Source: Prochlorococcus marinus XMU1404 (lineage in GTDB: Bacteria; Cyanobacteriota; Cyanobacteriia; PCC-6307; Cyanobiaceae). Taken from it: a stretch of 64,000 nt of DNA. Shown here in pieces: positions 14,708 through 34,448 of the stretch (its first letter is position 1; each line of letters opens with the position of its first letter). The translations under genes were made by a program, and so were the position numbers. The notes beneath the pieces are model-generated. The model was not told the DNA's origin. It did no database searches and saw only the letters and a list, made by a program, of their open reading frames with translations. The stretch covers positions 496,001 through 560,000 of the forward strand of contig NZ_JAAORE010000001.1 in the NCBI RefSeq assembly GCF_017696175.1, written 5' to 3'.

Positions 14708-14775
14708 TAATTCTTTAAAATACGTTTTTTATAAAATTAACTTTAAGACAAATCAAAAAATTAAAAATTTCTGAA

Positions 14776-15126
14776 TTGAAAAATTTTTCAAAACTTTTAA
14801 TTATAATATCCTTATTTGTTATTCATCCTGTAATAGTTAACTCGGCTGAAATTCTTCAAATTATAAGTTCAAATACTATTTTGGTGGGGGATCAGAATAG
14901 GAATCTAAATATTAGATTATTTTGTGTAGATGTAAATGAAAATGATGAGCTCGAAGCAACTAATTTACTCAAGAGTGAATTCCCAAGGGGAAGCAAAGTA
15001 AAAATAAAACCTTTTGGTTTTAAAGATAATTTATTGTTAGCAAAAGTTTCTAATATTAAAGGTACTAAGGAAATGACAGAATTATTAGTTGCTAAAGATT
15101 TAACTAGTAAAGTTTGTACAAGTTAA
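14776..15126 (+). CDS. Small secreted protein, possible SNase-like fold
   Basis: The 116-residue protein, from a TTG start at 14776, opens with a Lys followed by a hydrophobic core and VNSAE, a clear Sec signal peptide with cleavage near residue 24. The mature part (about 92 residues) has SSNTILVGDQNRNLNIRLFCVDV, which resembles the first strands of staphylococcal-nuclease (thermonuclease) domains, where similar peptides line the OB-fold. The protein is shorter than a complete SNase and the catalytic Arg/Glu set is not evident, so nuclease activity is doubtful. It may be a periplasmic or thylakoid-lumen protein of unknown role. It converges end-to-end with the YfiH gene. Confidence 0.68.
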   Translation: MKNFSKLLIIISLFVIHPVIVNSAEILQIISSNTILVGDQNRNLNIRLFCVDVNENDELEATNLLKSEFPRGSKVKIKPFGFKDNLLLAKVSNIKGTKEMTELLVAKDLTSKVCTS

Positions 15127-15915
15127 CTATTTCTCAGAGCAAATAAAATTCCATTGCCTCGAGATTGTATTGCTTCTTCTCCAGGAATTAAATTCATTTT
15201 TTAATTTGTATGTGCATAAATTTGAGATATCTATATTTGCATTAGGGATGTTCTCATTTAAAAGTTGCCTGTAGGCAGATCTTTTAAGATCAAGTTGATT
15301 TAAGTTTTGCTCTTTCAAGTGATTTGAATCTCTAGAATAGAGATCTTTTTCAGTTTTAGTCAAATTGACAGTTATTTTTTTGTTCTCGGCCTTTTTATAA
15401 AATTCTTTTAGTGTCATCTTATCAACTAGATAATGTTCCTTCGATATCGATGGCCCTATTGCGATAAGTAAGTCATCTCTAGATGTTCCAAAATTATCGA
15501 AAATTTTAACCAGATTTTTTATTATTTTTTTTTCTAAACCTTTTCTTCCACAATGCAAGGCTGCTACATTTCTTGTCTTTTTATCTGCAAAAAATATTGG
15601 CATGCAATCAGCTGTGTAAATCCACAAGTTTTGATTGCATTTATTACCAACAAGACCATCTGCATAAGTCTTACTCCCTTCTTGCGAATGTGATCCAAAA
15701 ACTATCACATTACTGTGAATTTGATTTAAAACACAATTTACATAATTCTCATTAAAATAATTACTTAATAATTGAGGAGATTTCTCAGAGCAAGACTTCG
15801 TAAAATATGCATGTTTGAAATTATATTGACTAAGGATAGGTGATATGTAATACTCAAATTTTTTGTTTTGAATAAAAATTTCAGCTTTAGAGAAATATAT
15901 TTCTTTGTAAGGAAT
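15127..15915 (-). CDS. YfiH/DUF152 laccase-domain protein with probable ATT start
   Basis: Family of copper/zinc-dependent polyphenol oxidases also reported to act as purine nucleoside phosphorylases. Visible metal-site motifs are TADCMPIFFAD, ALHCGRKGL and, upstream, QIHSN. The last is coded at about 15709-15723, before the first GTG (15708). The frame stays open from 15708 up to a stop at 15946-15948 and encodes family-like sequence there, including KHAYFTK, yet contains no ATG, GTG, TTG or CTG. An ATT at 15913-15915 has AGGAG on the sense strand 8 nt before it and gives a 262-residue product, the normal family length. A start at 15708 would lose one metal-binding His. ATT initiation is inference; a mutated start or sequencing error is the alternative. 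Confidence 0.75.
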   Translation of the reverse strand: MPYKEIYFSKAEIFIQNKKFEYYISPILSQYNFKHAYFTKSCSEKSPQLLSNYFNENYVNCVLNQIHSNVIVFGSHSQEGSKTYADGLVGNKCNQNLWIYTADCMPIFFADKKTRNVAALHCGRKGLEKKIIKNLVKIFDNFGTSRDDLLIAIGPSISKEHYLVDKMTLKEFYKKAENKKITVNLTKTEKDLYSRDSNHLKEQNLNQLDLKRSAYRQLLNENIPNANIDISNLCTYKLKNEFNSWRRSNTISRQWNFICSEK

Positions 15916-15937
15916 AGTTCCTGCTCCTAAAGTGAAT

Positions 15938-16843
15938 TTATGAAATTAATTTAATATCCCTCAAGATCCAGAATCCTGCAAATTTTTCAATATATGGCGT
16001 TGACTGTATGGAAATAAATTGATAACCAAAAGAATTTCTTTTATTCTCTAAAAACTTTGTACTTAAAATGTTTGCATCTTTTTCTGGTAAATCTGTTACC
16101 AGCCACTTATCTTCTTCTGAAGCTTCAAGGATAAGTTGGTTTTTATTTATAGTTAATTTAATAGGTTCTAAACAACTGAACCATGCAGCAAGTGCTAAAG
16201 ATCTATCTTTGCTAAAAAGTCTTAATCCTGGGACTGAGTGATTATCATCTAAATCTTGTTGAATTGGGAAAATATCTCCAAATTCCATGGGCCAATTTTC
16301 TGCTGATTTTAATTCACCAATTGATATTTCAGAGATAGTTAAAGCGTCACCTCTCACTGCTTCTGGTAGAGGTTGAGGAGAGCTTTCTATTCTGGAGCTT
16401 AAAGTAGGAGCTAGTACCCCTCTTACATAACCTGTTTCCTTTGGATAAATCTCTTTTTCAAGAAATTCGATTCTATCAATTAAATCGTAAGTTCTTCTAC
16501 TAACAAGAGGCTCAATACTTGAGGCCTCCAGTGATTTCTTAATGATCGATTTCATTGAAGATCTCCAAAATCTAACTATTGTTGGTTTCGCCCAGCCTTG
16601 TTTTTTTGCATCATTAATTGCTTCATTTAGTGCCTCTGTAAGCCATTCTGAATTAACTTTATTAGCAGGACAATTTTTATTCCAAAGAAAAATATCTTCT
16701 GTCTTAAAACTTCTTGTAGAGCAAATAATTAACTCCCATCTTTTTTTTCCATTGGATTCAATAATTGGTCTTGAATAAAAGTCTAATTCCCAATTTGAAG
16801 TTTTTAATTCAAGACTTGGTTCTGTTTTATTATTAATGTTCAT
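15938..16843 (-). CDS. Tab2/Atab2-family RNA-binding protein (DUF1092)
   Basis: The 301-residue protein shows the Tab2 hallmarks: N-terminal WELDFYSRPI...GKKRWELIIC, the central RFWRSSM and SSRIESSPQPLPEAVRGD segments, and the C-terminal GFWILRDI. In Chlamydomonas and Arabidopsis the homologs bind psaB mRNA 5' regions and promote photosystem I (and II) translation; in cyanobacteria the protein is conserved and assumed to act on the same messages. Its ATG overlaps the stop of the S1-domain protein by four bases (ATGA at 16840-16843), so the two translation factors form one unit, with the YfiH gene behind. Confidence 0.9.
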   Translation of the reverse strand: MNINNKTEPSLELKTSNWELDFYSRPIIESNGKKRWELIICSTRSFKTEDIFLWNKNCPANKVNSEWLTEALNEAINDAKKQGWAKPTIVRFWRSSMKSIIKKSLEASSIEPLVSRRTYDLIDRIEFLEKEIYPKETGYVRGVLAPTLSSRIESSPQPLPEAVRGDALTISEISIGELKSAENWPMEFGDIFPIQQDLDDNHSVPGLRLFSKDRSLALAAWFSCLEPIKLTINKNQLILEASEEDKWLVTDLPEKDANILSTKFLENKRNSFGYQFISIQSTPYIEKFAGFWILRDIKLIS

Positions 16844-28971: not shown

Positions 28972-30543
28972 TTAACTGAAATATGCTTTGGCATCGTAGA
29001 GAGTTTCATCGCTTATCTCTGGAATTCCTCTCAAGATTGCGTATTTTTCAGTATTTGTTTTAACTTTACCTCTTACAAAAAATGGAACTTTTGTTAATTC
29101 AGCTCTACCAGATTCAGTCCAAATAATTCCTTCTTTACTATTTTTTTCTTTTTTTTCGTCAGATTTTAAAATTTCCTTTGTGTTTGTCGCTGTATGTCCT
29201 AAATGGCTTTGATGACCATCAACAAACTCAAAGTCATGTTTGAACATATCAATAAGATGCTCTTCTAATCCCATCATTAGGGGGTGTACCCAGTCATCAA
29301 AAATCACATTTGCTCCTTCCCATCCCATTTGAGGGCTATATCTTGCAGGAACATCTTGAACATGCATTGGAGTACTAATTACTGAGCATGGAATGCCGAG
29401 TCTTTTTGCACTATGCCTTTCCATTTGAGTCCCTAAAACTAATTCAGGGGCTGCTTTTTTCATGGCATCTTCCACTTCTAGATAATTGTTAGTTATCAGA
29501 GCTTCTACATTTAGATCTTTTGCAGTAGCTCTTACTTGCCTGGCCATCTCCCTGCTGTACGTTCCAAGACCAACTACTTCAAAACCCAATTCTTCCTTCG
29601 CAATTTTGGCTGCTGCAATTGCATGTGTTCCATCACCAAAAATAAAAACTCTTTTGCCGGTTAGATAATTTGAGTCAACTGATTTTGAGTACCAAGGAAG
29701 TTTTGATTTATTTTCTAATTCTTTTTTATTCGTCAAAGGAAGATCTAATTTCTTATGAACTTCATTTATAAATTCAATTGTATTTTTTATTCCAATTGGA
29801 ATAGTGTTTGAATATTCCATTCCAAAGTTCCGTTTAAGCCATTCGCATGATGCTTCCGCAATTTCTGGATAAAGACAAATATTTATTTCAGCATCAATTA
29901 GTCTTTCAATATCATCTGGACTAGCACCTAATGGAGCAACTACGTTTGTATCTATTCCTTGCTCTGAAAGTATGCGTTGGATTTCGATTACATCATCTCT
30001 ACATCTAAAACCTAGTAATGAAGGGCCAAGTATATTGACTTTTGGTCTACGCCCAAATTCCTTCCACCTTAGAGGACTTATTTTCTCTGAATAGCTTACT
30101 TTTTCTTTTAAAAGGGTTCTTGTTAATTGATAAAAGGTTTCTGAGGCCCCCCAATTTTCTTTCTTGCTATAAGCAGGTAATTCAAGATTCACAATCGGCA
30201 TATCAAACCCCATCCCTTTCGCAAGAGCTCCAGGTTGGTCTTGGATAAGTTCTGCTGTACAACTTTCTCCGACTAAAAGAGTTTTGGGTTTGAATCGTTC
30301 AACTGCTTCCTTAATATTTTTCTTCACTAATTCAGCTGTATCACCTCCAAGGTCTCTAGCCTGAAAAGTTGTATAAGTTACTGGAGGCCTTTGCCCCCTC
30401 CTCTCGATCATTGTAAAGAGAAGATCTGCATATGTATCTCCTTGGGGGGCATGAAGCACATAATGAATGTCTTTCATTGACGAGGCAATTCTCATAGCAC
30501 CAACATGTGGTGGTCCTTCATAAGTCCAAAGAGTTAATTCCAT
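28972..30543 (-). CDS. chlB: Dark-operative protochlorophyllide reductase, subunit B
   Basis: NifK-like subunit of the catalytic ChlN-ChlB heterotetramer that binds protochlorophyllide and shares the [4Fe-4S] cluster. The 523-residue protein starts [18 protein letters not shown], has [15 protein letters not shown] near residue 91 (cluster/fold region), [16 protein letters not shown] in the middle and a ChlB-specific C-terminal domain ending with a small helical module (residues about 460-523). It starts 5 bp after the chlN stop, so chlN-chlB are one transcript. Only this step of chlorophyll synthesis can work without light. Confidence 0.98.
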
Positions 30544-30548
30544 AGTTT

Positions 30549-31814
<1,266 letters not shown>

Positions 31815-33808: not shown

Positions 33809-33872
33809 AATAACAAATAAATTTATTGTGAATATTATCTTACTTCAAAGCTTGATACGGAGACAGGAAAGG

Positions 33873-33900
33873 TTGAACATTCCACACCTGTGTAGACAGG
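33873..33900. promoter_or_regulatory. Upstream direct-repeat copy and CCTGT hairpin
   Basis: This part of the 328-bp gap between rdgB and csoS1A (33809-34136) holds TTGAACATTCCACA at 33873-33886, repeated exactly at 34105-34118, and a hairpin CCTGT-GTAG-ACAGG at 33887-33900 immediately after it. The gap also holds other dyads. A 90-codon reverse frame there (33840-34112) has no family features and is not called. Confidence 0.45.
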
Positions 33901-33984
33901 GCCTGCCTCGTACGGTAAATAACATAATGTAAATTTTTTCTTAACACAACAGTATGTTTTGATGCACTAACTAATTTGCATAAG

Positions 33985-34027
33985 TATTGACATATCAATA
34001 GTACCAAGGGTGATAAGTTTAACTTAT
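33985..34027. promoter_or_regulatory. Candidate LysR-type operator dyads upstream of csoS1A
   Basis: Two perfect dyads: TATTGA-CATA-TCAATA at 33985-34000 and ATAAGTT-T-AACTTAT at 34013-34027. The second contains a T-N11-A core (34014 to 34026), the LysR-family recognition form. Its centre lies about 68 bp before the predicted transcription start, the usual activator position for LysR proteins such as RbcR/CbbR. The regulator itself is not in this window. Confidence 0.5.
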
Positions 34028-34069
34028 GAATGATAGAAAAAACATTAATGGAGATTTTGTCGAAAACGC

Positions 34070-34081
34070 TTGACTTATAAG
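34070..34081 (+). promoter_or_regulatory. Predicted promoter of the carboxysome operon
   Basis: TATAAG at 34076-34081 could be the -10 element, giving a start near 34088 and a leader of about 49 nt. It overlaps a 10-bp palindrome ACTTATAAGT (34073-34082). A TTGACT at 34070 is too close to serve as its -35. The leader contains the second TTGAACATTCCACA copy (34105-34118). Confidence 0.4.
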
Positions 34082-34136
34082 TACTTAATGAAGCATTCTT
34101 CGAATTGAACATTCCACATTTAGTAATTAGTAGACA

Positions 34137-34448
34137 ATGGCTACAGAAACAATGGGCATCGCTCTCGGCATGATCGAGACACGCGGACTTGTACCTGCAA
34201 TCGAAGCAGCAGACGCAATGACAAAGGCAGCAGAAGTTCGCCTTATTGGTCGTGAATTCGTTGGCGGCGGTTATGTCACAGTATTAGTTAGAGGCGAAAC
34301 AGGCGCAGTTAACGCAGCTGTAAGAGCTGGTGCTGATGCTTGTGAAAGAGTTGGTGACGGTTTAGTTGCAGCTCACATTATTGCTCGTCCTCATAGAGAA
34401 GTTGAACCTGCTCTAGGTAACGGTGAATTTCTTGGTCAAAAGGACTAA
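34137..34448 (+). CDS. csoS1A: Major carboxysome shell hexamer protein CsoS1A
   Basis: Single BMC-domain protein of 103 residues that forms the hexamers tiling the alpha-carboxysome facets. It has EAADAMTKAAEVRLIGREFVG (residues about 23-43), GGGYVTVLVRGETGAVNAAV and a C-terminal HIIARPHREVEPALG. Its sequence is GC-richer than the surrounding DNA, the mark of a highly expressed gene in this genome. It is first in the operon csoS1A-cbbL-cbbS-csoS2-csoSCA-csoS4A-csoS4B. Only one CsoS1 paralog is present, as is typical of Prochlorococcus. Confidence 0.98.
   Translation: MATETMGIALGMIETRGLVPAIEAADAMTKAAEVRLIGREFVGGGYVTVLVRGETGAVNAAVRAGADACERVGDGLVAAHIIARPHREVEPALGNGEFLGQKD

Follow-up and report, generated by a model that had tools for sequence, protein, structure and literature searches.

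A putative AUU start codon of yfiH conserved across a clade of Prochlorococcus

The yfiH gene of Prochlorococcus marinus XMU1404 very probably begins at a genuine, inherited AUU codon, from which, with the help of an AGGAG Shine–Dalgarno (SD) sequence, a YfiH protein of 262 residues would be made, the ancestor of the clade having exchanged a standard start for ATT. The gene lies on the minus strand at 15127..15915 of the window, by which we mean the whole stretch of 64,000 nt that was analysed (contig NZ_JAAORE010000001.1, positions 496,001–560,000), and comprises 262 codons from the ATT plus the closing stop at 15129-15127, as delimited by translation, Pfam and NCBIfam matches and dN/dS. The conservation of the sequence and the position of the codon are established.

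The product had been recognised from the DNA letters as a YfiH/laccase-domain protein, an identity borne out by Pfam PF02578 (E-value 1.3e-40, 139.8 bits, gathering score 22.9) and by NCBIfam TIGR00726 (PgeF; 156.8 bits, cut-off 141.15). At its full length of 262 residues it is a predicted purine-nucleoside enzyme of the YfiH/DUF152 (PgeF, LACC1-like) family. Counting from the ATT, His67, Cys104 and His121 fall, in an alignment with the structures 1rv9, 1u05 and 1xaf, on the QIH/QVH, ADC and HAG positions. A His-Cys-His active-site triad is reported for YlmD in PMC6978800, which calls it conserved in YfiH and also gives purine-nucleoside activities for E. coli YfiH and Geobacillus YlmD. By our own reading of the alignment, the columns of His67, Cys104 and His121 are those of the predicted YlmD-type triad. 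Of note, 3 of 87 near-complete genomes of the genus gave no yfiH match at E 0.001 (G146 and G163 being named as without yfiH in the family search); the gene thus apparently can be lost.

The open frame, bounded by stops, spans 15127-15948 on the minus strand, and its upstream in-frame stop, a TAA at 15946..15948, was read from both the sequence and its translation. From 15948, the strand reads TAA TTT CAT AAA TTC ACT TTA GGA GCA GGA ACT ATT CCT TAC ..., with the putative ATT start codon at 15913..15915 (minus strand) and AGGAG at 15924..15928 (minus strand), separated by 8 nt. The sequence-only reading had given the same stop, codon, spacing and protein length, and all of these hold on rereading, as does its observation that no ATG, GTG, TTG or CTG occurs in the yfiH frame between the TAA at 15948-15946 and the GTG at 15708, every codon having been read. 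This GTG (15706..15708, minus strand) is the first standard in-frame start and opens a frame of 193 residues; it is unlikely to be the real start. Since it is codon 70 from the ATT, initiation there would drop 69 of the 262 residues, about a quarter and not the third that had been claimed, and the protein would lose the active-site residue His67; the sequence-only reading had already noted a metal-binding QIHSN encoded upstream of this GTG. Predicted peptides within residues 2-69, ahead of GTG 15708, are FEYYISPILSQYNFK and HAYFTK. No standard start able to give the conserved protein was thus found in XMU1404.

Orthologues were collected in several rounds. A first scan of relatives' contigs gave 80 loci, from the best 80 of 156 relatives, and among these the codon was ATT in 77, ATA in 2 and ATC in 1. 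Searches then matched yfiH in 217 of 266 genomes of the genus and in 353 of 400 of the family; 50 loci were taken, the window's own included, and were completed by 50 additional, mostly divergent, loci and by 60 more, for a total of 240 drawn from part of the matching genomes. Two of these were cut at the start (L207, L215), leaving 238 start-complete loci, and removal of 31 duplicates left 207 distinct sequences. The close set consists of 143 distinct orthologues of at least 70% identity. L231 (genome G202) was dropped for its scrambled 5' end; its yfiH is split between the two strands of one contig in a partial genome, probably through an assembly fault. The close set contains MIT 9107 and MIT 9314, which we take to be HLII, and is referred to as HLII; three sequences at 62-64% identity (L143, L213, L214) form its sister group. 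A more distant group comprises 22 sequences of 52.6-59.3% identity and is probably HLI, a label that we assign by inference.

In the close set, the start codon is ATT in 138 of the 143 orthologues, ATA in 2, ATC in 2 and TTT in 1. L196 was assigned to ATT by hand, a 3-nt insertion beside its start shifting the raw reading to ATA, and L138, the one with TTT, carries an ATG three codons before it. This conservation decides against a fault of sequencing or assembly, or the loss of a start in XMU1404 alone, which had been named as the rival idea. Nothing beyond the oddity of the codon itself speaks for such an accident, and it fails because the same codon occurs in 138 of 143 distinct orthologues, ATA or ATC in another 4, while the coding stretch behind it is under purifying selection; we give it practically no credence.

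In 132 of the 143 orthologues, no ATG, GTG, TTG or CTG lies between the upstream in-frame stop and the start codon position. The other 11 carry an in-frame TTG, GTG or ATG 3 to 13 codons before it, and because of these standard starts some lineages may possibly have abandoned ATT. Downstream of the ATT, the first standard start is reached after 28-104 codons, at a place that varies among relatives, and a GTG is found at the place of 15708 in 64 of the 143. All three sister sequences have an ATT ATT pair behind a strong SD, its second ATT at the codon position, with no ATG, GTG or TTG between 11 codons before it and 84-93 codons after it. In the distant group, the first standard start after the upstream stop is ATG in 20 sequences, GTG in 1 and TTG in 1, and in 22 of 22 it precedes the YY/YF motif by 21 codons, exactly as the ATT does; this distance is independent only in the 22 distant sequences, the position having been taken from the alignment, or picked as the second ATT, elsewhere. 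To the question that the sequence-only reading had raised, whether all Prochlorococcus orthologues have ATT, the answer is therefore divided: ATT prevails in the close set, but the distant group has ATG, GTG or TTG there. An ATG at the same codon in an orthologue, proposed there as a refutation, does exist in 20 of the 22 distant sequences, yet the difference is fixed between clades and is not local. Taken with the clade-wide conservation and the upstream stops and frame changes, the standard starts that the distant group has on the same codon argue for ATT as the start.

Selection and frame bear on two further alternatives. In 1,500 random pairs compared over the stop-to-stop frame, dN/dS averages 0.543 for residues 1-10, before the ATT, 0.215 for residues 12-78 and 0.277 for residues 79-270. 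Residues 12-78, ahead of GTG 15708, are thus under purifying selection. Translation from this GTG, with the upstream stretch untranslated, has in its favour that no other standard start comes before it and that it opens a frame of 193 residues, but it would leave that selection without an object, depends on a codon whose place shifts among relatives and yields a protein devoid of His67; we regard it as very improbable. The second alternative, equally improbable in our judgement, is that the N-terminus is supplied by fusion with the product of the preceding gene through frameshifting or stop read-through, and not by initiation at ATT. That gene, tab2-like by its open reading frame and Pfam matches (PF20429 and PF06485), lies at 15938..16843 on the minus strand; its stop at 15940-15938 is 22 nt before the ATT, on the same strand and in a different frame, a proximity that would suit a fusion. 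Against it, in 13 of 143 sequences a stop in the yfiH frame lies 2-6 codons before the codon (the closest in L068, TGA ACT ATT), and the relative frame of tab2 and yfiH varies. In the 137 of 143 sequences where the distance could be measured, the tab2 stop and the codon are 14 nt apart in 1 sequence, 20 in 2, 21 in 8, 22 in 122, 25 in 3 and 28 in 1; as this distance varies out of frame, the upstream frame is not kept. Between the codon and residue 45, 142 of the 143 sequences have the same length, and only L196, with its 3-nt insertion, differs. Among the sequences compared, no other start was found that would fit the stops, the frame changes and the common codon position.

Some features of the codon were considered and set aside. 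The constancy of the third base offers no proof of a start, because several other conserved Ile codons keep their third base equally well. Likewise, the missing ATG does not amount to selection against ATG, because the expected number is only about 0.9 (13 G among 2077 T-majority fourfold cells). An ATA at residue 16 was rejected as the start, as it varies to GTA, ACA, AAA and AAT and is 15 nt more distant from the SD.

The ATT is accompanied by a well-placed SD, AGGAG being found at 8 nt in 116 of the 138 ATT orthologues and no listed motif in only 4, so that the codon is kept among relatives together with an SD at working distance. Among the 20 distant sequences with ATG, 14 have no listed SD motif. 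The rRNA end of XMU1404 reads GTCGTAACAAGG...GGATCACCTCCTAACAGGG, which we take, by its motif, to be the 16S end. With the genome's own tail, CACCUCCUAA, the mean duplex energy is -8.6 kcal/mol for the 138 ATT sequences (-12.7 to -3.4) and -0.6 kcal/mol for the 20 ATG sequences (-4.9 to 1.8), and 2.0 for L138, with its ATG. Another rRNA tail, CACCUCCUUU, gives -6.9 versus -0.9, the contrast being larger with the genome's own tail. For comparison, an SD-like motif precedes the first standard start in 8 of 70 conserved genes of the window, a codon that does not in every case mark the true start. The weak codon thus appears to go with a strong SD in the ATT group, although this contrast may rest on a single evolutionary event. 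Such a pairing accords with the tendency of GUG and UUG starts toward stronger SDs, described in the accessible part of PMC5622118, and with the S. aureus cases in that of PMC13009471.

An association between SD loss and an upstream standard start was also noticed, GGAG being lost in 4 of the 11 sequences that have one and in 3 of the 132 that do not (Fisher p 0.0006, with related sequences counted as independent). When GGAG or GGGG is taken as the mark, only L138, L140 and L142 have lost it, and a test on independent pairs is powerless. Given this non-independence, we keep the association as an anecdote. With regard to RNA features, the local fold at the start was no better than shuffled sequences (z 0.26 and -0.72), and no Rfam family reached threshold within 15700-16100.

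The history of the codon was considered on a tree built by a quick method from residues 28-270 of 173 rows, the partial sequences L211, L212 and L240 being left out; long branches (L150, L230) drew a warning from the program, and for eight rows of less than 52% identity (L150, L233-L239) the codon position was not assigned. All 140 close rows group in a single clade (SH-aLRT 100), and a branch with a support of 80 sets these and the three sister rows apart from the 30 others. Scored as ATT versus standard, with L138 and the 30 others counted as standard, the codon changes twice on the tree. One gain and one loss of ATT is the simplest reading, and a single origin is possible at this support of 80.

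How the start would operate can be proposed from these features. The initiator tRNA would read the AUU at 15915-15913 as fMet, the AGGAG 8 nt upstream would keep the 30S subunit over the weak codon, and ribosomes ending tab2 22 nt upstream may also supply the start site, in a form of coupling. In the ancestor of the clade, the standard start would have given way to ATT and a strong AGGAG would have been gained, possibly once, both being mostly kept since; we infer the order of these changes, as we do initiation at AUU and any sensitivity to IF3. By analogy with S. aureus, a low output would be expected.

Few AUU starts are known in bacteria. In the parts available of a start-codon survey, one change from AUG to AUU is reported in 61,358 ancestral AUG, and one from GUG to AUU in 5,080 (PMC5622118). 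The AUU starts of E. coli infC and pcnB, recorded in the accessible portions of PMC1780047 (which prints pncB) and, for pcnB, of PMC13009471, resemble that of yfiH, but their products are IF3 and poly(A) polymerase, whereas here a YfiH/DUF152 enzyme is encoded. As far as PMC13009471 was available, S. aureus cvfC1 (AUU) and ccpN (AUA) also combine a non-canonical start kept among relatives with a strong SD; their starts were, however, demonstrated by ribosome profiling and reporters, while that of yfiH is supported by comparison, and the genes and phylum are others. The Streptomyces sigR gene, in the available part of PMC5472188, likewise has a clade-conserved non-canonical start missed by annotation, but this start is GTC, its repression by IF3 was tested there, and codon and gene both differ from those of yfiH. 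A literature search returned nothing on Prochlorococcus together with a non-canonical start codon, a weak absence as most subscription papers fall outside its coverage. The parallel with infC that had been drawn holds as an analogy between AUU starts and fails as common biology: infC lies elsewhere in XMU1404 and has ATG as its start in all 30 Prochlorococcus loci that were read, that of XMU1404 included (31 genomes matched), and autoregulation by IF3 as in infC does not apply, the gene being yfiH and not that of IF3. With this restriction, the interpretation given in the sequence-only reading is supported, and yfiH would represent a further case of the bacterial AUU starts already known.

The codon may be real and yet have little effect. 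A nearly neutral fixation, in which the SD and the coupling to tab2 leave the AUU devoid of regulatory consequence, is compatible with an inherited AUU start and puts in doubt only the low output. The strong SD that accompanies the ATT group and the lack of any sign of selection against ATG favour it, but S. aureus AUU and AUA starts with an extended SD gave about 10% of the AUG level in poor medium, and one of them up to 30% in rich medium, according to the part of PMC13009471 that was available; we consider it a minority possibility. A further, rather unlikely reading is that the AUU swap and the AGGAG gain form a co-adapted, clade-wide dial, through which the amount of YfiH in HLII would be set by how much IF3 is present or by the condition of the initiation machinery. 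Should this be true, such control would operate apart from the infC loop; infC itself begins with an ordinary ATG in this organism.

In this abundant marine lineage, the switch to ATT appears fixed over 146 distinct sequences, 5 of which have another codon there. Since the standard-start state persists in a related group, codon and SD gain lend themselves to a side-by-side test of their effects. Annotation limited to ATG, GTG and TTG would truncate yfiH in most of the clade, often removing an active-site residue.

The rarity of such a start was assessed on 145 conserved non-overlapping genes, from 145.6 kb of XMU1404 set against 267 kb of G032. In none of the others is the first ATG, GTG or TTG as far into the frame as in yfiH, where it stands at codon index 79 (the next being 57 and 57), versus index 6 in its G032 orthologue, a clear gap that the conserved protein spans. 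In five of the 145 genes, yfiH among them, the first standard start comes 15 codons or more after that of the orthologue, and in the reverse comparison 3 of 150 G032 genes were flagged. The late first start of yfiH is more than chance, one clear case among 145 genes. The other four flagged genes, at 14719-15126, 28975-30636, 33843-34286 and 100395-101144, have first-start indices of 19 to 57. The first of these, the convergent neighbour of yfiH at 14719-15126 on the plus strand, has its first standard start, a TTG, at 14776 (codon index 19), and the aligned frame of G032 has one at index 1.
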